From the NCBI GenBank assembly GCA_016209865.1, contig JACQVL010000217.1, positions 1 to 21,338 on the forward strand: 21,338 nucleotides of DNA. The letters are read 5' to 3'. The position numbers and the translations under genes were made by a program. The notes beneath the pieces are model-generated. The model saw only the letters and a program-made list of their open reading frames with translations, was not told the origin of the DNA and searched no databases. This DNA comes from Candidatus Latescibacterota bacterium. Its GTDB lineage: Bacteria; JAAXHH01; JACQVL01. The first letter of the stretch is position 1. The number at the start of each line of letters is the position of its first letter. Below are positions 6,290-21,338 of this stretch, in pieces.

Positions 6290-8299
6290 TTGGCAGCGAC
6301 TTCCCTCGATACTCTCTGCATCAATACGATCCGTATGCTCTCCGTCGACGCGGTGCAGAAGGCCAATTCCGGCCATCCGGGCCTGCCGATGGAGGCGGCA
6401 CCCATGGCGCACCTCCTGTGGACGCGGTTCATGCGGTACAACCCGAAGAACCCCCTGTGGCCGGACCGCGACCGGTTCGTCCTGTCCGCCGGACACGGGT
6501 CGATGCTCCTGTACAGCATGCTCCACCTGACCGGCTACGACCTCCCCATGGACGAACTGAAGCGATTCCGGCAGTGGGGGAGCCGCACGCCCGGCCATCC
6601 GGAGTACGGCCTGGCCCCCGGCGTGGAGACGACGACCGGTCCCCTCGGCCAGGGTCTCGGCAACGCGGTCGGCATGGCGATGGCCGAAGCCCACTTAGCC
6701 GCCCGGTTCAACCGGCCCGGCGAAGCGATCGTCGACCACTGGACGTACGTCATCGCCAGCGACGGGGACATGATGGAGGGGGTGGCGTCCGAGGCGTGCT
6801 CATTAGCCGGACATCTCCGCTTAGGCAAGCTGATCGTGCTCTACACCGACAACCACATCACGATCGAAGGGGAAACGTCCCTCGCTTTCTCGGAAGACGT
6901 CGGCCGGCGGTTCGAGGGGTACGGCTGGCACGTCCAGCACGTGGCGGACGGGAACGACCTGGAGTCGCTCGACGCCGCCATCCGGGCCGCGCAGACCGCG
7001 GCCGGCCGGCCATCCCTCATCGTCTGCCGGACGATCATCGGGTACGGGAGTCCCAACAAGGCCGGGACGGCGGAAGTCCACGGCGCAGCGTTGGGCGAAC
7101 AGGAAGTTCTCCTGACGAAGCAGAACTTAGGCTGGCCGGTTGAACCGACATTCTACGTTCCGGACGAGGTGTACGCCCGCTTCCATGAGATGGCCGACCG
7201 GGGCCGGAAGCTGGAAGAGGCATGGCAGGCGAAATTCGGCGCATACGCGGCCGCTTACCCCGACCTGGCCCAGGAGTGGCGGCGAGGGCTCACTCGCGAA
7301 CTCCCGGCCGGGTGGAATGCCGAGATTCCGGTGTTCACGCCCGACAAAGGGGCGATCGCCACCCGCCAGGCGTCGGGCGAGGTGCTGAACGCCCTCGCGA
7401 AACGGGTGCCCAGCCTGATCGGCGGGTCGGCCGACCTCGCCCCGTCGACCAACACGTTGCTCAAGGGGTACGCCGACTTTGAAGCCGGGAGCTACGACGG
7501 CCGGAACCTCCACTTCGGCGTCCGGGAGCACGCGATGGGGGCGACCCTCAACGGCATGACCCTGCACGGCGGGGTGATCGCGTACGGGGCGACGTTCCTG
7601 ATCTTCTCCGACTACATGCGCCCGTCCATCCGATTAGCGGCGATCATGGAGATCACACCCATCTACGTCTTCACCCACGACAGCGTCGGCCTGGGCGAGG
7701 ACGGGCCGACCCATCAACCGATCGAGCACTACATGACGCTGCGAGCGATCCCGCACCTTGTTCTCATTCGTCCCGCCGATGCGACCGAGACGGCGGTCGC
7801 CTGGCAGGTGGCCTTAGAACACCGGGGCGGGCCGGTGGCCATCCTCCTCACCCGGCAGAAAGTCCCCATCCTCGACCGGACGGCCCTCGCTCCGGCGGAC
7901 GGCCTGCGGCGAGGCGCGTACGTCCTGGCGGAGGCGGAACACGGACGGTCGGACGCCATCCTGATCGCCACCGGCTCCGAGGTGCACGTCGCCTTAGCCG
8001 CTCGCAAGAAGCTCGCAGAGGATGGGGTGGCCGCCCGTGTGGTCAGTATGCCAAGCTGGGAGTTGTTCGACCGGCAACCCGTCGAATACCGCAACACCGT
8101 GCTCTCTCCGGACATCCCCGCCCGATTAGCGATCGAGACCGGCGTCTCTCAAGGGTGGGAACGCTACGTCGGCCCGCACGGGTCTGTGCTCGGCCTGAAT
8201 CGCTTCGGCGCGTCCGCGCCGGATAAAGTCATCATCGAGCAATTGGGGTTCACGGCGGAGAACGCGGCGGCGCGGGCGATGAAATTGGTGAAAAGATAG
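6290..8299 (+). CDS. tkt: Transketolase (first of two)
   Basis: This 669-residue thiamine-diphosphate enzyme moves two-carbon ketol units between pentose, tetrose and heptose phosphates in the non-oxidative PPP. Key features are His29 in [16 protein letters not shown], the ThDP/Mg motif SDGDMMEG with TDNHIT, the catalytic Glu413 in FGVREHAMG, the phosphate/substrate block [16 protein letters not shown], and ATGSEV near the C-terminus. The start is a TTG at 6290, chosen because AAGGAGG (6276-6282) lies 7 bases before it, overlapping the upstream stop, and because the protein aligns from its first residues with the second transketolase. Stop to next start is 127 bases, filled by a heptamer/palindrome spacer. 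The TAG stop donates its G to the left inverted arm. This gene has eight TTA codons, all followed by G. Confidence 0.95.
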
Positions 8300-8406
8300 T
8301 GACGAGTGACAAGTGACGAGTAAAACTAAGTAACCATTAATGGAATGTCATTCCCGCGCAAGCGGGAATCCATATCATTTCTTGCTCGTCACTTGTCACT
8401 CGTCAC
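8299..8406. repeat. Inverted heptamer spacer B with perfect 22-bp arms
   Basis: The left arm at 8299-8320 (units GTGACGA, GTGACAA, GTGACGA) is the exact reverse complement of the right arm at 8385-8406. The 64 bases between hold a dRS3-like palindrome (8350-8369). The left arm begins in the stop codon of the first transketolase, and the right arm ends 8 bases before the AAGGAGG of the second. The RNA could fold into a long hairpin between the two genes. Confidence 0.85.
8350..8369. repeat. dRS3-like 20-bp palindrome, copy 2
   Basis: ATTCCCGCGCAAGCGGGAAT, identical to the copy at 4564-4583 and again preceded by GTC and followed by CCA. It sits inside the loop of inverted spacer B. Confidence 0.85.
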
Positions 8407-8426
8407 TGCTCTTCAAGGAGGCTCGC

Positions 8427-10442
8427 ATGTCGAAGGCGCTCGACCAATTGTGCGTGAATACCATCCGGATGCTGGCGGTCGACTGCGTCCAGCAGGCGAA
8501 ATCGGGACACCCCGGCACGCCCATGGGCGCGGCGGATATGGCGTTCATCCTGTGGAATCGGTTTCTGAAACACAACCCGGCCAACCCCCGATGGGAGGAC
8601 CGCGACCGGTTCGTCCTCTCCCCCGGCCATGCGTGTGCGTTGCTCTACAGCCTCCTGCATCTGTACGGGTACGACCTGGCCCTGGACGACCTGAAGCGGT
8701 TCCGGCAGTGGGAGAGCAAATGCCCCGGCCACCCGGAGTACGGGGAGACGCCGGGCGTCGAGGTGACGACCGGGCCGCTCGGACAGGGGTTCGCCACGGC
8801 CGTCGGGATGGCGATGGCGGAGGCCCACGTAGCCGCGATCTTCAATCGGCCAGGCCACGAGATCGTCGATCATTCTACGTATGGCATCTGCGGAGATGGA
8901 GACCTGATGGAAGGCATCTCTGCCGAAGCCGCCTCCTTAGCCGGGTTCCTCGGTCTGGGCAAGTTGATCTTTTTTTATGACGACAACCGGATCTCGATCG
9001 AAGGAGGTACGCGAGACACCGCGTTCTCCGAGCAGGTCGAGGAGCGGTTCAACGCGTACGGCTGGCACGTCCAGGTCGTCCCCAACGGCCATGACTTCTT
9101 CTCCCTCGAATATGCGCTCCACCGGGCGCAGACAGAGTCCGGCCGGCCGTCGCTCATCATCTGCCGCACCCACATCGGGTACGGCAGCCCGGAGCAGGAC
9201 TCCGCGAAGGTCCACGGGGAGCCGTTCAAGGATGAGCACTACAAAGCGACGCGACGACACTACGGCTTCCCCGAGGATCAGCCGTTCTACATCCCGGATG
9301 AGGCGTTAGCGCATTTCCGGGAGGCGGTCGAACGGGGCAAGACGGCAGAATCGGCCTGGTGGGTGAAGTTCGAGCGGTACGCCCATGAGTACCCTGAGCT
9401 GGCCGAACGCTTCCGGCTCGTCATGAGCGGGGCGCTGCCCGAGCAGTGGGACGGTGAAGTCCCGTTGTTTACCCCGGAGAAAGACGGCCAGATGGCCACC
9501 CGCGACTGCTCTGGGAAGGTGCTCAACGCGTTGGCCAATCAACTAAAAGGGTATCTGGTCGGTGGGTCGGCGGATCTGGCGCCGTCGACGAAGACGTACA
9601 TGACCGGCCACGGGGATGTTCGCTTCCACGAGTTCGCGGGGGACAACATCCATTTCGGCGTTCGAGAGCACGCGATGGGGGCAGCGACGAACGGCCTGGC
9701 GCTGCACGGCGGGATCATCCCGTACTGCGCGACGTTCCTCCAGTTCTTCAACTACATGGCCCCGACCGTCCGCTTAGCCGCGTTGATGAAGCAGCGGGCG
9801 ATCTTCGTGTACACCCACGACAGCATCGGCCTGGGCGAGGATGGACCGACCCACCAGCCGATCGAGCACCTCGCCTGGCTGCGTTCGATGCCCAACGTCG
9901 TCTCCATCCGGCCGGCGGATGGGAATGAGACCGCCTGGGCGTGGCGGGTGGCCATCCAGCGTACGGACGGCCCAACGGTGCTGTGCTTCTCCCGCCAGAA
10001 GCTGCCGACACTCGACCAGACGAAGCATGCTTCGGCAGAAGGCGTGACGAAGGGGGCGTACGTCCTGTCCGACTGTGACGGGACTCCCGACATCATCCTG
10101 ATCGCCAATGGAGGGGAACTCCTGTTCGCGCTCGGCGCACAGGATCGGCTCAAAGGAGATGGAATCAAGGCTCGTGTGGTGAGCTTCCCGTCCTGGGAGT
10201 TGTTCGAGCAGCAGCCGCAGGAGTATAAGGAGGCCGTCTTGCCCCCGTCGGTCACGCGACGGTTGGGCATCGAGGCGGCCGGGCCGCTCGGCTGGGATCG
10301 CTACTTAGGACCGGTGAGCGGCAGAAATTTCATCGGTCTGTGGGGATTCGGCGCGTCCGCGCCCTATGAAGTGCTCGCGCAGAAATTCGGGTTCACGGTA
10401 GAGAACGTCGTGGCGAAAGCGAAGGCGCTGGTGAGGGGATAA
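8427..10442 (+). CDS. tkt: Transketolase (second, paralogous)
   Basis: This 671-residue transketolase is clearly related to its upstream neighbour throughout. It has His28 in [24 protein letters not shown] with DDNRIS, catalytic Glu414 in FGVREHAMG, and [16 protein letters not shown]. Thus the same residues needed for catalysis are present in both copies. It differs where most transketolases have ATGSEV, reading ANGGEL, and in several surface segments. The ATG at 8427 follows AAGGAGG at 8415-8421; a longer frame from 8340 would only translate the repeat spacer ([12 protein letters not shown]). It contains a run of eight T (8970-8977). It lies 18 bases before the transaldolase/isomerase fusion. 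Whether the two copies form separate homodimers, differ in substrate or are conditionally used cannot be told from sequence. Confidence 0.93.
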
Positions 10443-10460
10443 TCAGAAGGGAGTCACCGA

Positions 10461-13325
10461 ATGCCAAACCCGCTCGTCGAACTCCGTAAATACGGCCAGA
10501 GTCCCTGGTACGATAACATCCGGCGGGGACTGATCACGTCGGGCGACCTGCAGAAGATGATCGATGAAGACGGTCTGATGGGGGTGACGTCCAACCCGGC
10601 CATCTTCGAGAAAGCGATCGCGGGCAGCACCGACTACAACGAGGCGATGGAGGCCCTCGTCCGGCAGGGGAAGAACGCGCAGGAGATTTTCGAAGCCTTA
10701 GCCATCCAGGACATCCAGATGGCGGCGGACGTGATGATGCCCGTCTACCGCCGGACGGGCGGGCGTGACGGCTACGTCAGTCTGGAAGTCTCGCCGTACT
10801 TAGCGAACGACACACAGGGGACGATCGTCGAAGCCCGCCGGCTCTGGGCCGCCGTCCAGCGCGACAACGTGATGATCAAGGTGCCCGCCACCCCGGCCGG
10901 CATCCCCGTCATCCAGCAGTTGATCAGCGAAGGATTGAACATCAACGTCACCTTGATGTTCTCCATCCAGGTGTACGAAGCGGTGGCCAACGCGTACATC
11001 ACCGGCCTGGAAGCCCTCGCCGCGAAGGGCGGGGACGTCAGCCGGATCGCCAGCGTGGCGAGCTTCTTCATCAGCCGGATCGACACCCTCATCGACAGCA
11101 TCGCCCAGGAGCGGCTGAAGACTGCCACCCGCCCTCGGGAACGGACGGAACTGCAGGGCATCATCGGGAAAGTCGCGATCGCCAACGCAAAGATCACCTA
11201 CCAGCGGTACCAGGAACTGTTCTCCTCCGGCCGGTGGAACGCGCTTGCCGCCCGCGGAGCCAGGACGCAGCGGCTTCTGTGGGCGAGCACGAGCACGAAG
11301 AACCCGAATTATCGCGACGTGATCTACGTGGAGGAACTCATCGGGCAGGAGACGGTCGACACTATCCCGGCCGCCACGTGGACGGCGTTCCGGGATCACG
11401 GCCGGCCACGCCCCAGCCTGGAATCGGGCGTGGACGAGGCGCGGGAGACGATGGGGATGCTCGAGTCGGCGGGCATCTCCATGACCGAGGTGTCGGCGAA
11501 ATTGCTCGACGACGGGGTGAAGCTGTTCGCCGACGCGTTCGATAAGCTGTTGAGCGCGACCGAACAGAAGCGGGAAGCGCTGTTGGGCGGGACGCTCGAC
11601 CGGCAGGTGTCTGCCATTGGCAGCTACGAAGAGGCTGTCAAGAAGACCTTAGAGGAGTGGCGCGCAGCGGGCAAAATCCGCCGGCTGTGGAACGCAGACG
11701 CCAGCCTGTGGACGGGCACGGACGAGAGCCAGTGGCTCGGCTGGCTGCACATCACCGAGCAGCAGCTCGAACACGCGAATCACCTCATCCGGATCGCCGA
11801 GGAGGTCAAGCAGGCCGGGTTCAAGAGTGCCCTCCTGCTCGGCATGGGCGGCAGCAGCCTCTGTCCCGAGGTGATGAAGCTGACGTTCGGGACGATCGAC
11901 GGCTACCCGGAACTCCACGTCCTCGATTCGACCGTCCCCGCGCAGGTCAAGGCGTTCGAGAAGAAGGTGAAGCTGTCCAACACCCTGTTCATCGTCGCCA
12001 GCAAGTCGGGGGGCACGACCGAACCGAACGTCTTCCGGAACTACTTTTTCGACAAAGTCCAGCGCCGGTTGGGGAAGAAGAAAGCCGGGCAGCACTTCAT
12101 CGCCATCACCGACCCGGGGTCGAGGGTGGAGATCGACGCGAAGGAACGCGGCTTCCGGCACGTCTGCGCGGGCGTGCCGTCGATCGGCGGCCGGTACTCC
12201 GCCCTGTCGGACTTCGGGATGGTGCCCGCCGCCATCATGGGGGTGGATGTCGTCACCCTGCTCGAACGGGCGGAGCGGATGGCGCAGAGCTGCGCCGCCT
12301 GCGTGCCGCCGGAGGAGAATCCGGGGGTTGTGCTCGGGGTGATCCTGGGTGAGCTGGCCAAAGCCGGACGGGATAAGGTGACGATCGTGACCTCGCCTGG
12401 CATCGGAGATTTGGGGGCGTGGCTGGAACAGCTCTTGGCGGAGAGCACCGGGAAAGAAGGGAAAGGCTTGATCCCGGTCGACAACGAGCCGCTCGGCCCG
12501 CCCGATGTGTACGGCCAGGACCGGCTGTTCGCCTACGTCCGCCTGGCCTCCGGTCCCGACCCCGGCCAGGATGCGGCCATCAGCGCCTTAGGGCTCGCCG
12601 GCCATCCCGTCGTGCGGATCGCGGTCGCCGACCCGATCGACATCGGGGAAGAATTCTTCCGGTGGGAGATCGCTACCGCCGTCGCTGGCGCCGTCCTGGG
12701 CATCAACGCGTTCAACCAGCCGAACGTGCAGGAGAGCAAGGATTACACGAAGAGCCTGACGGACGAGTACGAGAAGACGGGCCGCCTGCCGCCAGAAATG
12801 CCCATCCTGGAAGCGGACGGCATCACGCTCTTCACCGATGTAGCGAATGCCGCTGCGCTCGGTGCGGCCGTGCCTGGTACGGGCTTTCCGATGGGGTCTC
12901 TCGAATCCTACCTGGCCGCGCACCTGAACCGACTCACCTCTGGTGACTACTTCGCGCTGACCGCGTACATCGAGATGAACGCGGCGCACCAGGAGGCGCT
13001 CCAGACCATCCGGCTCCGCATCCGCGACACGAAACGCGTGGCGACGACGCTGGGGTACGGTCCCCGCTTCCTCCACTCGACCGGCCAGTTGCACAAGGGC
13101 GGCCCGAACACCGGGGTGTTCATCCAGATCACGTCGGACGACGCCTCGGACGTGCCGATTCCGGGCAAGACGTTCACGTTCGGCGTGCTGAAAGCCGCAC
13201 AATCGATGGGCGATTTTCTGTCCCTGAGCAAACGCAACCGCCGCGTCCTCCGCGTCCACCTGCCGGCTGACGTCCCGGCCGGACTGGCGCGGCTGCGACA
13301 GGCGGTTGAAAAAGCAACGACATAA
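10461..13325 (+). CDS. tal-pgi: Bifunctional transaldolase / glucose-6-phosphate isomerase
   Basis: This 954-residue fusion combines two enzymes of sugar phosphate exchange. Residues 1 to about 370 are transaldolase: TSNPAIF (43-49) and the Schiff-base Lys140 in VMIKVPATPAGIP, then the WASTSTKNP segment. From about 375 the protein is a phosphoglucose isomerase with SIS folds: GMGGSSLCPEV (about 461), SKSGGTTEPN (about 513-522), GGRYSALSDFG (about 575), and the C-terminal block STGQLHKGGPNTG (about 872-884) with a conserved Lys. Natural fusions of this kind are known in several bacterial lineages and let fructose-6-P made by transaldolase pass to glucose-6-P. The ATG at 10461 has GAAGGGAG 6 bases upstream. 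The next gene is 167 bases away, across an AGGACGA-type repeat spacer. Confidence 0.95.
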   Translation: MPNPLVELRKYGQSPWYDNIRRGLITSGDLQKMIDEDGLMGVTSNPAIFEKAIAGSTDYNEAMEALVRQGKNAQEIFEALAIQDIQMAADVMMPVYRRTGGRDGYVSLEVSPYLANDTQGTIVEARRLWAAVQRDNVMIKVPATPAGIPVIQQLISEGLNINVTLMFSIQVYEAVANAYITGLEALAAKGGDVSRIASVASFFISRIDTLIDSIAQERLKTATRPRERTELQGIIGKVAIANAKITYQRYQELFSSGRWNALAARGARTQRLLWASTSTKNPNYRDVIYVEELIGQETVDTIPAATWTAFRDHGRPRPSLESGVDEARETMGMLESAGISMTEVSAKLLDDGVKLFADAFDKLLSATEQKREALLGGTLDRQVSAIGSYEEAVKKTLEEWRAAGKIRRLWNADASLWTGTDESQWLGWLHITEQQLEHANHLIRIAEEVKQAGFKSALLLGMGGSSLCPEVMKLTFGTIDGYPELHVLDSTVPAQVKAFEKKVKLSNTLFIVASKSGGTTEPNVFRNYFFDKVQRRLGKKKAGQHFIAITDPGSRVEIDAKERGFRHVCAGVPSIGGRYSALSDFGMVPAAIMGVDVVTLLERAERMAQSCAACVPPEENPGVVLGVILGELAKAGRDKVTIVTSPGIGDLGAWLEQLLAESTGKEGKGLIPVDNEPLGPPDVYGQDRLFAYVRLASGPDPGQDAAISALGLAGHPVVRIAVADPIDIGEEFFRWEIATAVAGAVLGINAFNQPNVQESKDYTKSLTDEYEKTGRLPPEMPILEADGITLFTDVANAAALGAAVPGTGFPMGSLESYLAAHLNRLTSGDYFALTAYIEMNAAHQEALQTIRLRIRDTKRVATTLGYGPRFLHSTGQLHKGGPNTGVFIQITSDDASDVPIPGKTFTFGVLKAAQSMGDFLSLSKRNRRVLRVHLPADVPAGLARLRQAVEKATT

Positions 13326-13476
13326 GGACGAAAAAGCAAGGACGAAGGCCAAAGGACGAAAGGGATGGGTTTCTGTTTGCGCGGGCATGATAAACAAGCG
13401 TCATGCATTGTTTTTCGTCCTTCGTCCTTCATACTTCGTCCTTCATACTTACTTTGTCCTTTATCCTTCGTCCTTA
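13324..13476. repeat. Inverted heptamer spacer C (AGGACGA type)
   Basis: The left arm (13324-13364) carries AGGACGA-like units and the right arm (13413-13476) the complementary TCGTCCT-like units, several of them tandem. A perfect 11-bp inverted match is AAGGACGAAGG (13338-13348) with CCTTCGTCCTT (13419-13429). The middle holds a degenerate dRS3-like palindrome at 13368-13390. The left arm starts in the stop codon of the fusion gene. The right arm ends just before the GGGAGG of the next gene. Confidence 0.8.
13368..13390 (-). repeat. Degenerate dRS3-like palindrome, copy 4
   Basis: GGTTTCTGTTTGCGCGGGCA plus TGA aligns with the reverse complement of the intact copies (GGATTCCCGCTTGCGCGGGA then ATGA), with a few substitutions and one missing base in the left half. 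It lies between the two heptamer arms of spacer C, the same place occupied by intact copies in spacers B and E. Assignment rests on this similarity and position. Confidence 0.5.
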
Positions 13477-13492
13477 CAAAGGGAGGTTCCAC

Positions 13493-14458
13493 ATGCAACT
13501 CAGCATGATCGGACTCGGACGCATGGGCGGGAACATGGTACGACGGCTGATGAAGGGCGGACACCGGGTCGTCGTGTTCGACCGCAACCCGGAGACGGTG
13601 AAGCAATATGCCGCCGAAGGGGCGCAGCCGGCCACGTCGCTGGAAGACCTGACCGGCAAACTGTCGAAGCCGCGGGTCGCCTGGGTGATGGTCCCGGCGG
13701 GCGCGCCGACGGATGACACGGTCAACACCCTCGCCGGGCTGATGGACAAGGGGGACATCATCATCGACGGCGGCAACTCGATGTTCAAGGACGATGTCCG
13801 CCGCTCGAAGGCGCTGAAGGCGCAAGGGCTGAATTACGTCGATGTCGGGACGAGCGGCGGGATCTGGGGCATTACCCGCGGCTATTGCATGATGATCGGA
13901 GGGGAGAAAGACGTTGTCGAGCACCTCGACCCGATCTTCAAGACGCTTGCCCCCGGCCCCGACCCGGGCGTCACTCCCACGACCCCAGCAGAAGCCGGGT
14001 ACATCCACGCGGGTCCGGCTGGCGCCGGGCACTTCGTCAAGATGATCCACAACGGGATCGAGTACGGCCTGATGCAGTCATACGCGGAGGGGTTCGAGAT
14101 CTTCAGGCAAGCCGCATCGGAGAAAGTGGCGGAAGACTACCGGTACAACTTCAACCTCCACGACATCGCGGAGGCGTGGCGGCACGGGAGCGTCGTCAGT
14201 TCCTGGCTGCTCGACCTGTTAGAGATCGCCCTGCGGAAGGATCAGAGCCTGGTCGATTACACCGGGTTCGTGCAGGACTCCGGGGAAGGGCGCTGGACGA
14301 TCCAGGCGGCGATCGAGGAGGACGTGCCCGCGAACGTGCTGACCGCCTCCCTGTACACCCGGTTCCGTTCACGGGAGAAAGAGTCGTACGCGGAGAAGAT
14401 CCTCTCCGCCCTCCGGCACCAGTTCGGCGGGCATCTCGAGCGACCGACAGGAGGATGA
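13493..14458 (+). CDS. gnd: 6-phosphogluconate dehydrogenase, short (NAD-type) form
   Basis: This 321-residue enzyme oxidatively decarboxylates 6-phosphogluconate to ribulose-5-phosphate and CO2. It has the dinucleotide motif GLGRMGGNM (8-15), [11 protein letters not shown], the substrate motif GTSGGIWG (Ser121-Gly123) and the catalytic [13 protein letters not shown] with Lys183 and Asn187. At about 320 residues it is the short form (GndA/YqeC-like), not the 470-residue classical enzyme. The end of the second strand reads VVFDRNPE (Asp30), where NADP-dependent enzymes usually have Asn-Arg-Thr, so NAD preference is inferred. The ATG at 13493 follows GGGAGG at 13481-13486; an upstream in-frame ATG at 13403 would only translate the TCGTCCT repeats. 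The GAGGATGA end leads into a TTTTGGA-type spacer before the glucose-6-phosphate dehydrogenase gene. Confidence 0.93.
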
Positions 14459-14462
14459 AAGA

Positions 14463-14585
14463 ATTTTGGATTGGAGATTTTGGATTTTGGATTAGAGAAA
14501 AGGATAAACCGGATTTTGGATGGCCGGTTTTGGATGGTGAATTGTTCCTCACAAATCTAAAATCCAAAATCCAAAATCCAAAATC
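14463..14585. repeat. Inverted heptamer spacer D (TTTTGGA type)
   Basis: TTTTGGA units fill the left part (14463-14494) and the centre (14512-14537), and TCCAAAA units the right arm (14553-14585). An 18-bp perfect inverted match pairs 14476-14493 with 14568-14585. No dRS3-like core is seen here. The following ATG (14601) has only a weak AAAGGG in front of it. Confidence 0.85.
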
Positions 14586-14600
14586 GAAAGGGTTTTTCCT

Positions 14601-16151
14601 ATGCCTCCAGCAGCAACCAAGACGATAGATGTCCACGCTGGGCTGCGCGATGTCTCGGCGGCGCAGCGCGCCGGGTCGTGCGTCATGACCATCTTCGGCG
14701 GCGCGGGCGACCTGGCTAAACGCAAGATCGTTCCCGCCATGTATAACGCCGCGCGAGAAGGGCTGACCCCACCCGGGTTCACGATCGTCGGGACCGGCCG
14801 GGGAGAGATGAGCCACGATCAGTACCGCGACCTGATGCGGGATTCCATCCGGGAGTTTGTGGCGCACGTCGATGAGGACACGCTGCGCGATTTCCTCGCC
14901 GGACTGTACTGGGTGGGCGGCGACTTCGGCGACCCGGCGCTCTATGTCACACTCGAAGGTCTCATTCAGCAGTGCAGCGAGGAGCGGACGAAGTGCGATA
15001 ACCGCATGTACTACCTGTCCACCCCGCCGAGCGTGTTCGTCCCGATCGTCCAGCAGCTCGGCGCGCACAACATGGCGCGGGTGTCCGGCTCGCACCACTG
15101 GCGGCGCATCATCATCGAAAAGCCGTTCGGCCGTGACCTGGAGTCCGCGAAGACGCTGAACCGGGAGATCGGGGCGGTGTTCGAAGAATGGCAGGTCTAC
15201 CGGATCGACCATTACTTGGGCAAGGAGACCGTCCAGAACATCACCGCCCTCCGGTTTGCGAACGGCATCTTCGAGCCGCTGTGGAACCGCAACTACATCA
15301 ACCACGTGCAGATCACCGCGGCGGAGAGCATCGGAGTGGAGGGACGGGGTGGGTACTACGAAGAATCGGGCGCCCTGCGCGACATGGTGCAAAATCACCT
15401 GCTCCAGGTGCTGACCTTAGTGGCCATCGAGCCGCCGAGCACGTTCGACGCGAACGCGGTGCGGGATGAGAAGGCCAAGGTCTTACGGGCGATGCGGCCG
15501 TACGGGCCGGAGGATGTCGACCGGTGCTTCGTGCGCGCGCAGTATGACGACGGTCTGATTCAGGGCAAGCCGGTCATCGGCTACCGCAAAGAAGACGGGG
15601 TCTCCCCGACGTCGATGACTGAGACGTTCGTCGCCGCTCAATTCTTCGTCGATAACTGGCGATGGGCCGACGTGCCGTTCTACATCCGCACCGGCAAACG
15701 CCTGCCGAAACGGGTGAGCGAGGTGGCCATCTTCTTCAAACGCACCCCGCATCTGATGTTCCGCCGGATGATGTCGGATGAGGTCGCCCCGAACGTCCTC
15801 GCCCTGCAAATCCAGCCGGATGAGAGCATCGCCATGCAGTTCGAGGCGAAATTCCCGGGCCCGCAGATGGAGTTGCGGTCGGTCAAGATGAACTTCCAGT
15901 ATAAAGAGGCGTTCCAGGTGGAGACGGCGGAGGCATACGAGCGACTGATCCTCGACTGCCTGCGCGGGGATGCCACCCTCTTCATGAGACGGGACGCGGT
16001 CGAAGTCGGCTGGTGGCTGGTCATGCCTGTCCTGGAACGCTGGCAGAACCAGCAGACCTCCAGCATCCCGGCGTACCCGTCGGGGTCGTGGGGGCCGAAA
16101 GAATCGGAAGATTTGCTCGCCCGTGACGGCCGCTTGTGGCGAACACCGTGA
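14601..16151 (+). CDS. zwf: Glucose-6-phosphate 1-dehydrogenase
   Basis: This 516-residue enzyme oxidises glucose-6-phosphate to 6-phosphogluconolactone with NAD(P), the first step of the oxidative PPP. The coenzyme motif is FGGAGDLAKRK (32-42), slightly unlike the common GASGDLAKRK. IIEKPFGRDL precedes the active-site signature RIDHYLGKE (Arg201-Glu209), which includes the substrate-binding Lys and the catalytic-region His. Further blocks are FEPLWNRNYINHVQIT, PFYIRTGKRLPKR and the C-terminal YERLILDCLRGD. The first 28 residues precede the conserved core; a shorter start at Met29 is possible. The leader is the heptamer spacer with only a weak AAAGGG 7 bases upstream, so translation may be modest or coupled. 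Downstream, a 147-base spacer separates it from the lactonase gene. Confidence 0.95.
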   Translation: MPPAATKTIDVHAGLRDVSAAQRAGSCVMTIFGGAGDLAKRKIVPAMYNAAREGLTPPGFTIVGTGRGEMSHDQYRDLMRDSIREFVAHVDEDTLRDFLAGLYWVGGDFGDPALYVTLEGLIQQCSEERTKCDNRMYYLSTPPSVFVPIVQQLGAHNMARVSGSHHWRRIIIEKPFGRDLESAKTLNREIGAVFEEWQVYRIDHYLGKETVQNITALRFANGIFEPLWNRNYINHVQITAAESIGVEGRGGYYEESGALRDMVQNHLLQVLTLVAIEPPSTFDANAVRDEKAKVLRAMRPYGPEDVDRCFVRAQYDDGLIQGKPVIGYRKEDGVSPTSMTETFVAAQFFVDNWRWADVPFYIRTGKRLPKRVSEVAIFFKRTPHLMFRRMMSDEVAPNVLALQIQPDESIAMQFEAKFPGPQMELRSVKMNFQYKEAFQVETAEAYERLILDCLRGDATLFMRRDAVEVGWWLVMPVLERWQNQQTSSIPAYPSGSWGPKESEDLLARDGRLWRTP

Positions 16152-16280
16152 TTTTGGATTTTAGATTTTGGATTTTGGATTAAAGAGGAGTCACGATAAA
16201 GAAGGGATTTCACGTCTCATGTGAGACAGAGTATGCCCGGTGTGTCATTCCCGCGCGAGCGGGAATCCAAAATCCAAAAT
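16150..16280. repeat. Inverted heptamer spacer E (TTTTGGA type)
   Basis: The left arm (16150-16182) contains tandem TTTTGGA units and begins in the stop codon of zwf. The right arm (16264-16280) contains TCCAAAA units. A perfect 17-bp inverted match pairs 16165-16181 with 16264-16280. The right arm merges with the end of the dRS3-like palindrome at 16247-16266, sharing AAT. A small stem GTCTCA/TGAGAC lies at 16214-16227. The AGAGGAG in this spacer is not followed by a usable start. Confidence 0.85.
16247..16266. repeat. dRS3-like 20-bp palindrome, copy 3
   Basis: ATTCCCGCGCGAGCGGGAAT, one base different from copies 1 and 2 in the loop, again preceded by GTC and followed by CCA. Its last bases form part of the right heptamer arm of spacer E. 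Confidence 0.85.
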
Positions 16281-16298
16281 GAAGCATCGGAGGGGCGC

Positions 16299-17042
16299 AT
16301 GAACATCCAGATCTGCCAGGACGTCGACAGCCTGAGCCGTCAGGCGACGGTCGAGTTCGTCCGGCTGGCCAACCGGGCGATCTCCTCGACCGGCCGGTTC
16401 ACCGTCGCCTTGGCGGGCGGCTCCACCCCGCGGAAGCTGTACGACCTGCTCGCCAGCGAGGCCTTCCGGACGCAGGTCATCTGGTCGAACGTCGAGGTGT
16501 TCTGGGGGGATGAGCGGTGCGTCCCCCCGGATCATCCGGACAGCAATTACCGGATGGCCTACGAGGCGCTGCTCTCGCAAGTCCCCATCCCGCCCGACCT
16601 CATCCACCGGATGCCCGCGGAACGGGACGACGTCGCGGCCGCGGCCGACGAGTATGAACGGACGATCCGGGAGAGCTTCGACCTGGCAGACGGGGAATTC
16701 CCCCGGTTTGATCTCATCCTGCTGGGCATGGGCGACGATGGACATACCGCCTCCCTCTTCCCCGGAACAGCCGCCATCCATGAGCAGCGGCGGCTCGTCG
16801 TCGCCCACTACGTCGAGAAATTCAAGACCAACCGGATGACCCTCACCCCGCCGGTTCTCAACGGCGGGCACAACGTCTTCTTCCTCGTGTCGGGGGAGAG
16901 CAAGGCGGCGACGCTGAAGGAAGTGTTGCAGGGTGAGTCCCAGCCCGACCGGTACCCGTCCCAGGTCGTCCGTCCGGAATCCGGCAGCCTGGTCTGGCTG
17001 ATCGACCGTGCAGCCGCTCGGCTCCTCGACCTGGCGGCGTAG
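16299..17042 (+). CDS. pgl: 6-phosphogluconolactonase
   Basis: This 247-residue lactonase hydrolyses 6-phosphogluconolactone to 6-phosphogluconate, linking the dehydrogenases encoded just upstream. It shows the family motifs in order: VALAGGSTPRKLY (36-48), the WGDERCVPPDHPDSNYRM block (69-86), and LLGMGDDGHTASLFPG (141-156), where Asp, Gly and His line the active site. The length fits the glucosamine-6-P deaminase-like (DevB/SOL) type, and no signal peptide is seen. The ATG at 16299 follows GGAGGGG at 16289-16295; a longer frame from 16221 would only translate palindrome and heptamer DNA (SFPRERESKIQN). It ends with TAGGAGGG, whose purines serve as the ribosome site of the next gene, so the two are closely coupled. 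Confidence 0.94.
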   Translation: MNIQICQDVDSLSRQATVEFVRLANRAISSTGRFTVALAGGSTPRKLYDLLASEAFRTQVIWSNVEVFWGDERCVPPDHPDSNYRMAYEALLSQVPIPPDLIHRMPAERDDVAAAADEYERTIRESFDLADGEFPRFDLILLGMGDDGHTASLFPGTAAIHEQRRLVVAHYVEKFKTNRMTLTPPVLNGGHNVFFLVSGESKAATLKEVLQGESQPDRYPSQVVRPESGSLVWLIDRAAARLLDLAA

Positions 17043-17053
17043 GAGGGCTCGTC

Positions 17054-17722
17054 ATGATCCGCTTAGCGCCTTCCATCCTCTCCGCCGACTTTGCCCGCTT
17101 GGGTGAGCAGGTCAAGACGATCGAGCAGGCCGGGGCTGACCGCGTCCATATCGACGTGATGGACGGGCATTTCGTCCCGAACATCAGCATGGGGCCGGTC
17201 GTCGTCCAGTCCCTCCGGCCAGTGACCTTGCTTCCCCTTGAAGTCCACCTGATGATCGATGCCCCGGAACGGTACATCGACGCGTTCGTGAAGGCCGGGG
17301 CGGACACGGTGATCGTCCATCAGGAGAACGTCCCCCATCTCCACCGGATCGTCCAGCAGATCAAGGGCCTGGGCACACGGGCGGGCGTCGCCCTCAACCC
17401 GGCGACGCCAGTGAGCACGCTCGACGTGATCCTCGATGACCTCGACCTGGTGCTCGTCATGACGGTCAACCCGGGCTTCTCCGGCCAGGCGTTCATCCCG
17501 GCCACCCTCTCGAAGATGCGACAAGTGCGCGCCCTCCTGAACGAACGGGGCCTCCGGTGTGACGTGGAAGTCGACGGCGGGATCACGACCGAGACCGCCC
17601 CCCAGGCTGTCGAGGCGGGCGCCGACGTCCTGGTCGCCGCTTCCGCGATTTTCGGCCACCCCGAAGGGATCGCCGCCGCCATGCGCCAACTCCGCGAGTG
17701 CGTGGCTCCTCTCCCAGGATGA
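17054..17722 (+). CDS. rpe: Ribulose-phosphate 3-epimerase
   Basis: This 222-residue TIM-barrel enzyme interconverts ribulose-5-P and xylulose-5-P, joining the oxidative branch to the transketolases. Visible motifs are LAPSILSADFARLG (Ser7), the metal-binding HIDVMDGHFVPN (His32, Asp34), EVHLMI (His65), the MTVNPGFSGQAFIP phosphate loop and EVDGGI with the second catalytic Asp. The length is normal. The ATG at 17054 has AGGAGGG ending about 6 bases upstream, starting in the stop region of pgl. It is the last PPP gene in the run. No ribose-5-phosphate isomerase follows; instead there is a 347-base gap with regulatory features of the next gene. I see no clear intrinsic terminator directly after the stop. 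Confidence 0.95.
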   Translation: MIRLAPSILSADFARLGEQVKTIEQAGADRVHIDVMDGHFVPNISMGPVVVQSLRPVTLLPLEVHLMIDAPERYIDAFVKAGADTVIVHQENVPHLHRIVQQIKGLGTRAGVALNPATPVSTLDVILDDLDLVLVMTVNPGFSGQAFIPATLSKMRQVRALLNERGLRCDVEVDGGITTETAPQAVEAGADVLVAASAIFGHPEGIAAAMRQLRECVAPLPG

Positions 17723-17742: not shown

Positions 17743-17770
17743 AAAATCATCCCTCCCTCTCCCTTCCGCT

Positions 17771-17836
17771 CGACAAAATGTCACCGTCCAGCCGCTTGAA
17801 ATTCCTCAGTTTTGACAAAATGTCATCGTTCATCCG
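17771..17836 (+). promoter_or_regulatory. Paired enhancer-like palindromes TGACAAAATGTCA
   Basis: CGACAAAATGTCA (17771-17783) and TGACAAAATGTCA (17813-17825) are 42 bases apart, four turns of helix, so they face the same side. The similarity continues 11 bases further (CCGTCCAGCCG against TCGTTCATCCG). They lie about 140-190 bases upstream of the sigma54-type promoter at 17956-17971, where activators of sigma54 usually bind. The activator is not identified. Confidence 0.55.
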
Positions 17837-17955
17837 GCAACCCATCGTTTCGATGAGACGATCTGTCCGTGTGCGGGAGGTTTGAGGGCGTGCCGTCTTC
17901 CTCGAAGAGATAATAACATCATGACAGGCATTACGTTATGGAGCGGAACGTCGCG

Positions 17956-17971
17956 TGGTATGGTTTTTGCT
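17956..17971 (+). promoter_or_regulatory. Sigma54-type (-24/-12) promoter
   Basis: TGGTATGGTTTTTGCT matches the sigma54 plan TGGCACG-N4-TTGCW, with the invariant GG (17957-17958) and GC (17969-17970) exactly 10 bases apart. Transcription would begin near 17982, leaving a leader of about 88 bases before the universal stress protein start at 18070. A GTGATCAC palindrome (17985-17992) and a TCACTGT direct repeat (17971-17977, 17989-17995) overlap the start region. I see no small gene in this gap. Confidence 0.55.
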
Positions 17972-18069
17972 CACTGTAAGGGGCGTGATCACTGTCCGTA
18001 CGTGAAGCCGGTCATCCCGGTGCAAGGCCCGCCCTGAACACAGGAAGGGACGCAGAGGAGGCACACACG

Positions 18070-18537
18070 ATGGCCATACAACTCAAACGGCTCTTATGTC
18101 CGACGGATTTCTCGGAACCCTCCGAACACGCGTTGACGTACGCGATCTCGCTCGCCCAGCAATACGGCGCGGTGCTGTACCTCCTGCACGTGATCGAGCC
18201 GCTGACGCCTGTTCCGGGCATCGAGATGGGACCGGTACTGATGTACGATGAGCGGCCGGACCTCCTCCAGCGGGTGCATGAGTTGCTCGATGAGATGGTG
18301 CCGGAGGATGTCAAAGCTAAGATCGAGATCAAGCCGCTCATCCGCCGGGGCGCTCCGTTCTTGGAGATCATCCGGACGGCGCGGGAAGAGGAGATCGACC
18401 TGATCATCATCGCCACGCACGGTCGGACCGGGTTGAGCCACGTGCTGCTGGGCAGCACTGCCGAGAAGGTCGTCCGGAAAGCCCCGTGCCCGGTGCTGAC
18501 GATCCGACATCCTGAGCATGAGTTCGTGATGCCATAA
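18070..18537 (+). CDS. Universal stress protein (UspA family)
   Basis: This 155-residue protein is a single USP domain. It opens with LKRLLCPTDFSEPSEHAL, a typical first strand with Asp13, then YLLHVIEP, and ends with the nucleotide-binding stretch IIATHGRTGLSHVLLGSTAEKV. The latter fits the G-x9-G-S/T part of the ATP-binding motif of the ATP-binding class, though the preceding Gly of G-x2-G-x9-G is Ala. Such proteins bind ATP or act as stress effectors in the cytoplasm, and their exact function is seldom predictable. The ATG follows GAGGAGG at 18055-18061 with 8 bases between. The sigma54-type promoter and paired palindromes upstream suggest activator-dependent induction. The next gene, a metal ATPase, follows after 159 bases of heptamer spacer and may be co-transcribed. 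Confidence 0.93.
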   Translation: MAIQLKRLLCPTDFSEPSEHALTYAISLAQQYGAVLYLLHVIEPLTPVPGIEMGPVLMYDERPDLLQRVHELLDEMVPEDVKAKIEIKPLIRRGAPFLEIIRTAREEEIDLIIIATHGRTGLSHVLLGSTAEKVVRKAPCPVLTIRHPEHEFVMP

Positions 18538-18542
18538 AAGGC

Positions 18543-18696
18543 AGTGACGAGTGGCGAGTGACAAGTGACAAGTGAAAACCGGTCAGAGCGGATGGTCAGG
18601 GTGACTGATTTAAGGCATGCTCTTCCTGCCACACGTGACCTTCGCTTCTCACTCTACTTGTCCTCGCTTTTACTCGTCACTTGTCACTCGTCACTT
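18543..18696. repeat. Inverted heptamer spacer F (GTGACGA type)
   Basis: GTGACGA/GTGACAA units (18543-18574) face TCGTCAC/TTGTCAC units (about 18654-18696). A perfect 13-bp inverted match is CGAGTGACAAGTG (18555-18567) with CACTTGTCACTCG (18678-18690). The right arm runs straight into the ATG of the ATPase gene and leaves no purine-rich ribosome site. No dRS3-like core is visible in the middle. Confidence 0.8.
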
Positions 18697-21009
18697 ATGC
18701 AGACAGTGGAACTGCCCTATACACCCCCGGAGGAACCCCACGGGCGACGGTGTGCCGACCTCTTAGTCGACATCTTGAGTACGTACCGCGGGATCGCCGG
18801 GATTGCGGTCGATGAGGCGACGTCCGTCCTCACCCTCCGGTACGATCCAGCGTTGATCTCCCTCGAAAAAGTCGAGCAGGTCGCCCGTCAAGTAGGGATC
18901 AAGCTCCGGGACCGGTTCGGCCGGTGTACGATCCGGCTCACCGGGCTGAACTGCCAGGACTGCGCCCGGACGGTCGAACGCGGCCTGGCCCGGGTCGACG
19001 GGGTGCCCTGGGCGACGGTGAACTTCGCCGCCTCTGTCCTGCGCGTGGAGTACCGGGAGCAGAGCGGGACGCTCGCCGAGATCGAACGGCGGCTCGACCA
19101 GCTCGGCTACGCTGCGGGGGAGGATGATCTCCGGCACGCCTGGCGGCGGCACGCGATGGCCCTCCTGACCGGGTTCGCCGGGGCGTGCCTGCTTCTTGGC
19201 TGGGGACTGGAATTTGTCCCGTCCATTCCGTCGTCCGCCCGGTTGATCGCGTACCTCCTCGCTTCCCTGACGGGCGGCTACTACGGGCTTCGCAACTCCG
19301 TCGCGGCGCTCCGCGCCTGGAACATCGACATCAACCTGCTGATGGTCGTCGCCGCGGTCGGGGCGACTGTGATCGGCCGGCCCCAGGAGGGCGCGGTGCT
19401 GCTCTTCTTGTTCTCGCTCAGCAACACCCTGGAGACGTATGCGATGGGACGAACCCACCGGGCGATCCGGGGGTTGATGGACTTGAGCCCGCCGGAGGCG
19501 CTCGTCCGGCGGGACGACCAGCCCGTCCGGTTGCCCGTCGCCCAGGTCGAGCCAGAGGATGTCGTCATCGTGAAGCCGGGGGAACGGATCCCCGTCGACG
19601 GCCGGGTGATCGCCGGAGAATCGAGCGCGGATCAGTCCGCCATCACCGGCGAGTCCGTCCCGGTCACCAAGCGGCCGGGCGATTCCGTCTATGCCGGGAC
19701 GATGAACCTGAGGGGGACGGTGGATGTCTTCGTCACTGCCCGATCCCAGGAGACGACGCTCGCGCGGGTGATCGCGTTAGTCGAGGAGGCGCAGAGTCAG
19801 AAAGCGCCCACACAACAGTTCACGGAATGGATCGGACAGTATTACACGATCGGGGTGCTGAGCATGGCCGTCCTGGTGTTCGTCATCCCGACCGTGTTCT
19901 TCGGCCGGGCGTCCGACCGGATGCTCTACCGTGCGATGACCCTTTTAGTCGTCGCCTCGCCGTGTGCACTCATCATCTCCACCCCGGCCGCCGTCCTCTC
20001 CGCCTTAGCCAACGGCGCGCGACGTGGCATCCTGTTCAAGGGCGGCGCCTACCTGGAAGGCCTGGCGAAGGTCCGGGCGGTCGCGTTCGATAAGACGGGG
20101 ACGCTCACGGCCGGCCGGTTGCACGTCACCGGCGTCGTGCCAGCGGACGGAGTGCCCCAGGACGAGGTCCTGCGCACGGCCGCCGCCGTCGAATCCGGGT
20201 CGGAGCATCCGATCGCGGCCGCCATCGTCGCGGCGGCTCACACGCACGGCCTCCATCCCTCCGTCGTGGCGTCGTTCCAGGCGATCACCGGCCAGGGGGC
20301 ACAGGGACTGATCGACGGCCAGATGGTCAGAGTCGGTAAACCGGAGTGGGTCGGCCAGTTCGTCGAGGTTCCGGCCGAGATGCGACAGCAGGTGGAGACG
20401 CTGGCCGCTCAAGGACGGACGACAGTCCTGGTCGGGGGGGATCGGCTGCTCGGTCTGTTGGCGGTCAGCGACATCCCGCGTCCGGCCGCGCACGGGCTGG
20501 CCGCCGCTCTGCACCGGCTCGGCGTCGAGTCGGTCGTGATGCTGACCGGCGACCATCCGGCCGTGGCTCGTACCATCGGTGCCCAACTCGGCCTCGACGA
20601 GGTGCGGGCGGGACTGCTTCCTCACGAAAAGGTGCAGGTGGTCCGGGAATTGCTAGGAAAATATGACGGGGTGGCGATGATCGGGGATGGAGTGAACGAT
20701 GCCCCGGCGTTAGCTGCCGCGACCGTCGGGATCGCGATGGGGGTGGGTGGGACGAACGTCGCCCTGGACACGTCGGACGTGGTGTTGATGGGGGATGACC
20801 TGGCCCAGCTTCCGATCGCCTTCGCGTTGAGCCGGCGCGCGTCGCGGATCATCCGGCAGAACCTCATCTTCGCCGTCGCGGTCATCATCACGCTGATCAT
20901 CTCGACCCTCATCGGACGGCTCTCCCTGCCAGTCGGGGTGATCGGCCATGAAGGGAGTACGCTCCTGGTCGTGCTCAACGGCCTCCGGCTGTTGGGCGGA
21001 ACGAGGTGA
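18697..21009 (+). CDS. Heavy-metal-transporting P1B-type ATPase
   Basis: This 770-residue membrane pump would export transition-metal ions using ATP. The N-terminus has two HMA-like regions: one lacking cysteines (about 15-68), and one with the metal motif GLNCQDC (Cys86, Cys89). About eight membrane segments follow. Catalytic motifs are TGES (317-320), the metal-site SPC in TM6 (421-423), the phosphorylated Asp465 in DKTGTLTAG, His504-Pro505 in SEHP, and GDGVND (663-668). The last membrane segment reads HEGST (751-755) in GHEGSTLLVVLNGLRLL. SPC with HEGST is the signature of subgroup P1B-4 (Co/Zn/Fe-type), whereas an HMA with CxxC and the fuller membrane plan is more usual for Cu or Zn/Cd pumps. 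The ATG at 18697 is the first that avoids repeat DNA; no Shine-Dalgarno is present. Confidence 0.92.
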   Translation: MQTVELPYTPPEEPHGRRCADLLVDILSTYRGIAGIAVDEATSVLTLRYDPALISLEKVEQVARQVGIKLRDRFGRCTIRLTGLNCQDCARTVERGLARVDGVPWATVNFAASVLRVEYREQSGTLAEIERRLDQLGYAAGEDDLRHAWRRHAMALLTGFAGACLLLGWGLEFVPSIPSSARLIAYLLASLTGGYYGLRNSVAALRAWNIDINLLMVVAAVGATVIGRPQEGAVLLFLFSLSNTLETYAMGRTHRAIRGLMDLSPPEALVRRDDQPVRLPVAQVEPEDVVIVKPGERIPVDGRVIAGESSADQSAITGESVPVTKRPGDSVYAGTMNLRGTVDVFVTARSQETTLARVIALVEEAQSQKAPTQQFTEWIGQYYTIGVLSMAVLVFVIPTVFFGRASDRMLYRAMTLLVVASPCALIISTPAAVLSALANGARRGILFKGGAYLEGLAKVRAVAFDKTGTLTAGRLHVTGVVPADGVPQDEVLRTAAAVESGSEHPIAAAIVAAAHTHGLHPSVVASFQAITGQGAQGLIDGQMVRVGKPEWVGQFVEVPAEMRQQVETLAAQGRTTVLVGGDRLLGLLAVSDIPRPAAHGLAAALHRLGVESVVMLTGDHPAVARTIGAQLGLDEVRAGLLPHEKVQVVRELLGKYDGVAMIGDGVNDAPALAAATVGIAMGVGGTNVALDTSDVVLMGDDLAQLPIAFALSRRASRIIRQNLIFAVAVIITLIISTLIGRLSLPVGVIGHEGSTLLVVLNGLRLLGGTR

Positions 21010-21154: not shown

Positions 21155-21338
21155 ATGGAGACAGAATTAATCGGCTCAACCCACAGAAGTCCGAATAATC
21201 CGTTCGAAGAGCAGAAAGCGGTCGAGCGATACCTGCACGAGATCGCGGCTTTTCCCATCCTCTCCTCGCCGGAAGAAGCCGTCCTGGCGCGCCGCATCCG
21301 GGCGGGCGATCAGGCGGCGTTGAACCGGCTCGTCCAGT
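21155..21338 (+). CDS. RNA polymerase sigma-70 family factor (3' partial)
   Basis: Only the first 61 codons are inside the window. After about 16 variable residues, the stretch VERYLHEIAAFPILSSPEEA then VLARRIRAGDQAALNRLVQ matches region 1.2 of group 1/2 sigma-70 factors (RpoD/RpoS/SigA-like), which have the pattern YLREIGR-PLLT-EEE-LA-RI-GD-AA-LV. The very short N-terminus, without a long acidic region 1.1, argues for a group 2 (RpoS-like, alternative) factor instead of the primary one, but this is not decisive. The ATG at 21155 follows GAGGTGG at 21143-21149. Core-binding and -10/-35 recognition regions lie outside the window. Its closeness to a stress protein and a metal pump fits a stress role only by association. 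Confidence 0.85.
   Translation, partial: METELIGSTHRSPNNPFEEQKAVERYLHEIAAFPILSSPEEAVLARRIRAGDQAALNRLVQ

Follow-up and report, generated by a model that had tools for sequence, protein, structure and literature searches.

The question raised by this locus is how the operon beginning with a universal stress gene, uspA, is controlled, and whether the palindromes found before it belong to a wider regulatory system. The window, which is the whole 21,338-nucleotide stretch analysed here, is contig C170 of G000, a 3.75 Mb MAG that is 83% complete. An initial annotation, made from the letters and the open reading frames, described a sigma54 promoter with two phased enhancer palindromes upstream of a UspA-family gene and, probably, a metal pump.

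The operon and its surroundings

Both gene assignments were borne out by domain models, and three genes of the operon were located on the window as follows.

18070..18537, + strand: uspA, universal stress protein (Pfam Usp, 3e-36; orthologues of 74% in G011 and 67% in G001)
18697..21009, + strand: heavy-metal P-type (P1B) ATPase with HMA domain (Pfam HMA and E1-E2 ATPase; NCBIfam TIGR01525 over cut-off)
21155..21338, + strand: divergent RpoD/RpoS-type sigma factor, start only (Pfam Sigma70 regions 1.2-4)

The frame of the P1B ATPase is open from 18565, and 18697 is its likely start. The window ends inside the sigma-factor gene, where it shares an exact 141-nt overlap with contig C354; from this overlap we infer that the two contigs join. 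C354 carries the rest of the sigma factor, followed by a PAS histidine kinase gene and then a receiver gene. The sigma-factor, kinase and receiver genes had been overlooked in the initial annotation. RpoS was the best NCBIfam model for the sigma factor, at 245.1 bits versus a cut-off of 378.7 bits, which falls short of an RpoS equivalog, and G000 has three other RpoD-like proteins, from which this one differs.

Directly before the array, positions 6290-17722 of the window hold a long stretch of pentose-phosphate genes, comprising two tandem transketolases, a transaldolase-glucose-6-phosphate isomerase fusion (954 aa), 6-phosphogluconate dehydrogenase, glucose-6-phosphate dehydrogenase, 6-phosphogluconolactonase and ribulose-phosphate epimerase; the names were mostly read from translations, and the epimerase was assigned by Pfam. 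Short imperfect intergenic repeats of the type GTGACAAGTGACAAGTGA are located at 18545-18590, and similar ones were found between genes elsewhere in the genome.

The control region lies upstream of uspA and consists of four elements, scored as described below.

17770..17784 (core 17772-17782), no strand: enhancer palindrome 1, TCGACAAAATGTCAC (matrix score 18.7)
17812..17826 (core 17814-17824), no strand: enhancer palindrome 2, TTGACAAAATGTCAT (matrix score 21.4; 42 bp from site 1)
17857..17867, no strand: degenerate third site, GACGATCTGTC (score 4.7; 43 bp from site 2)
17956..17971, + strand: sigma54 -24/-12 element, TGGTATGGTTTTTGCT (GG-N10-GC; score 17.0)

Direct reading of the -24/-12 element placed the GG at 17957-58 and the GC at 17969-70, separated by exactly N10 as annotated, and a transcription start is expected near 17982 from the position of this element. 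An rpoN gene, whose presence was a check proposed with the annotation, was found on contig C190 (PF04552, E 3.4e-61). Measured to the first G of the -24 GG, the site centres are 95, 138 and 180 bp upstream. A sigma54-dependent, enhancer-activated promoter is indicated by the -24/-12 element, by rpoN and by upstream sites at enhancer distance.

Palindrome 1 (CGACAAAATGTCA, 17771-17783) and palindrome 2 (TGACAAAATGTCA, 17813-17825) are both present with the claimed start-to-start distance of 42 bp, but the former has one mismatch. Similarity had been said to extend over 24 bases per copy; 20 of 25 bases are indeed identical between the two window copies, but the outer part has no counterpart in other regulon sites, and the 24-base extended site was rejected. 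Since these outer bases are private to the window copies, the functional unit would be TTGACA-N3-TGTCAA. The degenerate third site, which had also been overlooked, gave an empirical p of 0.00085 with three allowed offsets, and counterpart third sites were found at other arrays. As read from these sequences, the window array, counting its degenerate third site, is a triplet, as most of the other arrays are.

Arrays in two genomes

Single palindromes with ≤2 mismatches occurred six times in the window versus 5.9 expected by chance. Because this count does not exceed chance, the evidence had to be genome-wide. The pattern GACAAAATGTC, with ≤1 mismatch, gave 33 matches in G000 versus 14 for the control, several of them paired about 41 bp apart. 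When 16 genomes of the phylum were searched for the paired pattern GACANNNTGTC-N26-36-GACANNNTGTC, it was found at 4 places in G000 and 7 in G001, a relative from another family, and at none in the other 14, while a reversed control pattern gave 0 in all 16. Every pair was spaced 41-43 bp, though 37-47 was permitted. A site matrix, TTGACA-N3-TGTCAA, was built from 25 sites and revealed at least six array loci in G000 and at least five in G001, these counts being lower bounds because the members of the regulon were collected by pattern searches and their list is not complete. Three sites are present at most arrays. The loci and their adjacent genes are as follows.

G000, C170 (window operon): uspA-ATPase-sigma factor
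G000, C109: ald-kinase and, divergent, acetyl-CoA hydrolase/transferase
G000, C16: radical-SAM/EBP operon and NnrS-like gene
G000, C194: gltD-metF-like genes
G000, C354: unknown secreted protein
G000, C51: lipoprotein
G001, C765: uspA-uspA-sigma and lipoprotein
G001, C815: uspA and K+/H+ antiporter
G001, C1006: receiver and VIT-type gene
G001, C129: metF-like cluster
G001, C345: uroD-like gene

The NnrS, metF, uroD, VIT, antiporter and lipoprotein names are translations read by eye, without a Pfam or NCBIfam result.

Near the arrays, 12 outward sigma54 elements scoring ≥16 were seen versus 0.28 expected; the corresponding P of 4e-16 is indicative only, because the score is a simple consensus sum devised for this analysis, the 300 bp outward windows were chosen after the arrays were known, and the matrix derives partly from the same arrays. 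The distance from the nearest site to the promoter was 79-199 bp in 12 of the 15 listed promoters. The genome search proposed with the annotation, for palindrome pairs together with GG-N10-GC, thus found further arrays with sigma54 promoters in G000, and on this pattern evidence the arrays define a real regulon in that genome.

Comparison of orthologous promoters, another check proposed at the outset, found the arrangement kept. Arrays are retained at four orthologous targets, namely uspA-sigma, the lipoprotein gene (C51/C765), the metF-like genes (C194/C129) and uspA-2 (C815/C28). In G000, G001 and G011 alike, a sigma-factor gene comes after uspA, with a second uspA between them in G001 and the ATPase gene in the window. 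The uspA promoters of these three genomes have little common sequence apart from the sites and the promoter: that of G001 has three sites and the strong element TGGCATGCCGATTGCA, and that of G011 has degenerate sites and the near-consensus element TGGAACGTTTCTTGTA, with GT replacing GC. The second uspA of G011 (C28) is preceded by a perfect site and TGGCACGAATGTTGCA. Together with rpoN and the further arrays, these kept promoters support the reading of the window promoter as activator-dependent.

A few loci depart from this layout. At L061 (C16, 1952-1967) and L064 (C194, 9474-9489), a strong sigma54 element is directed at the array, and the gene beyond the array is on the same strand; judging from the sequence, the enhancer here may lie downstream of the start that it serves, or the genuine promoter may be a weaker element facing outward. 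At L063 (C134, 6970-7051), an EBP gene and a receiver gene flank two palindromes 71 bp apart, a spacing off the four-turn rule, and a sigma54 element occupies 6855-6840. One perfect TTGACAATATGTCAA each was found in G002 (L295, position 3942) and G012 (L296, position 3234), two genomes in which the activator orthologue described below is absent. The lone strong palindromes in G002, G012 and G010 were set aside, as no sigma54 element is nearby.

The candidate activator

Strong EBP matches in G000 numbered 14. The annotation had called for a linked AAA+ activator; none is present on the window contig, but a good candidate was found on C109.

G000:C109:3540-4901: candidate activator, AtoC-like NtrC-family response regulator (receiver PF00072, PF00158, PF02954)

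The protein has the domains of an NtrC-family response regulator, with a receiver, a sigma54-activation AAA+ domain carrying GAFTGA and a Fis-type HTH, and an array lies about 3 kb from its gene. Within the order, orthologues of 73-74% were found only in G001 and G011, which are the other genomes with arrays, the best matches elsewhere being 43-46%, and the recognition helix GIASRTIYRKL is identical among the orthologues. The kinase beside the G011 orthologue has its best G000 match in the kinase of the window operon, at 58% (next 43%).

A motif-only search for pairs in 384 genomes, in which no protein was used as query, matched five genomes besides G000 and G001. Good sites 41 bp apart, with outward sigma54 elements of 17.9 and 15.8, were present in G331 and G106, respectively. 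The matches in G031 (six GC-rich copies, repeat-like) and G208 (weak sites) were discarded, and that in G174 is a 40-bp tandem repeat with the promoter directed inward. Four of these five genomes were next examined for the C109 EBP. In G331, which is outside the phylum, the gene some 185 bp away from the array encodes the closest homologue of this EBP (53%), which ends in ISSRTIYRKL; in G106 the best EBP homologue (49%, INARTIYRRL) is on a different contig from the array. One strong and one partial instance support rather than prove the assignment of the arrays to the C109 EBP. A scan for arrays around EBP relatives of roughly 50% identity, most of them deltaproteobacterial, gave no pairs near them, and their recognition helix is different.

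Several findings stand against the model. The C109 EBP gene is off the window contig, and no recognisable array accompanies the sigma54 element of its own operon; G011 has the EBP, yet it holds no exact pair, and the sites at its uspA-sigma promoter are degenerate; the sigma54 element facing the array is the strongest one at C16 and C194; the MAGs are possibly incomplete (83% and 85%); and the adjacency in G331 is a single case reached after several searches.

It is fairly improbable that the regulon is real and another EBP binds the arrays, the alternatives being the PAS-EBP of C16, the response-regulator EBP of C134 and the kinase-linked EBP of C251. The C16 and C134 genes are near palindrome copies, but among the other genomes with arrays neither protein has a close orthologue, and both were rejected as activators. 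Orthologues of the C251 EBP are present in G001 and G011 (60% and 76% over fragments), and the four other genomes compared have no close one; against it, no array is nearby, and its DNA-binding end, hence its helix, is lost at the contig end. Only a C109-type EBP adjoins the array in G331.

Operators commonly take the form of palindromes this long, and some lone copies, as in G002 and G012, have no sigma54 element. These points would suit sites of a non-EBP transcription factor, either a repressor or a sigma70-type activator, with the sigma54 elements coincidental, a reading that we consider very unlikely in view of the 12 strong outward elements versus 0.28 expected and of the 79-199 bp distances, which are typical enhancer placement. 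Chance palindromes combined with a chance GG-N10-GC, favoured by the chance-level count of loose single palindromes in the window, can practically be dismissed given the genome-wide pairs with zero in the phylum controls and the arrays kept beside orthologous genes of another family.

Predicted control and comparison with known systems

We consider it likely that the region controls a sigma54-dependent stress operon within a larger undescribed regulon, in which the C109 EBP binds the phased palindromes and a sigma cascade follows. Starting from the sites, their spacing, the promoters, regulon membership, rpoN and the co-occurrence of activator and sites as found in the sequences, the C109 regulator would be phosphorylated by a PAS histidine kinase, and its dimers would bind two or three TTGACA-N3-TGTCAA sites on one helix face (41-43 bp, four turns). 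An active AAA+ hexamer could assemble on three filled dimer sites; by DNA looping it would reach sigma54-RNA polymerase at the -24/-12 element, which it would open. The transcript would yield UspA, the metal pump, the divergent sigma70-family factor, the kinase and the receiver. Since the operon encodes a sigma factor beside stress genes, one signal would start a sigma54-to-sigma70-family cascade; judged by the targets, this signal is probably energy, redox or oxygen limitation.

Searched as a text string, the palindrome had no match in the openly accessible literature, an earlier description in figures or closed papers being possible, and the literature on PilR-type TGTC sites held nothing useful for comparison. 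By analogy, NmpR of Myxococcus xanthus is the closest functional analogue found, and the Rrp2-RpoN-RpoS pathway of Borrelia the closest cascade. The NmpR regulon likewise combines sigma54 promoters and paired dyad sites with an NtrC-like response regulator, counts a universal stress protein among its targets and has an oxygen/energy theme; its site is GCGCA-N5-TGCGC, with 14-15 bp between sites (PMC11841059). In contrast, the sites here are TTGACA-N3-TGTCAA, 41-43 bp from start to start and often three in number, and the operon includes a metal pump and a sigma factor; by its site matrix, the array does not belong to the NmpR regulon. In Borrelia burgdorferi, a sigma54-dependent EBP response regulator drives a sigma70-family gene (PMC2940757, PMC11109971), whereas the sigma gene here shares its operon with genes for UspA, a metal pump, a kinase and a receiver, a clear enhancer array precedes the operon, and the sigma factor is not a certified RpoS.

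Among NCBIfam models, the C109 EBP and its adjacent kinase come closest to AtoC and AtoS of E. coli, but the scores (508.9 versus 714 bits and 288.5 versus 646 bits) are far under the curated cut-offs, so that the EBP is not an AtoC equivalog, and the targets differ. Desulfovibrio vulgaris also has a sigma54-dependent alanine dehydrogenase close to an EBP gene; its regulator DVU0569 is given as a single-component regulator with GAFTGG (PMC4641369). Compared by domain content and this motif, the C109 EBP differs in having a receiver domain and GAFTGA.

For an uncultured phylum this yields a predicted stress regulon whose candidate activator is named, whose site is defined and whose arrays mark eleven loci in two genomes; it is open to in vitro study without growing the organism. 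The strict four-turn spacing, often with three sites, provides a natural way to test whether EBP hexamers are templated by enhancer DNA. From the uspA-sigma operon, a cascade leading from sigma54 to a sigma70-family factor is suggested. A much more tentative extension, which we rather doubt, is a sigma54 general stress system of several phyla, in which an RTIYRKL-type regulator, a three-site hexamer template and a switch of UspA plus a sigma70-family factor would do an RpoS/SigB-like job.

The candidate activator gene itself sits behind a uspA-like gene and a formate-tetrahydrofolate ligase gene (L062, C109, 695-4901). This operon has the sigma54 element TGGCATAGTTGTTGCA at 695 and no recognisable array, and may be under a different activator.
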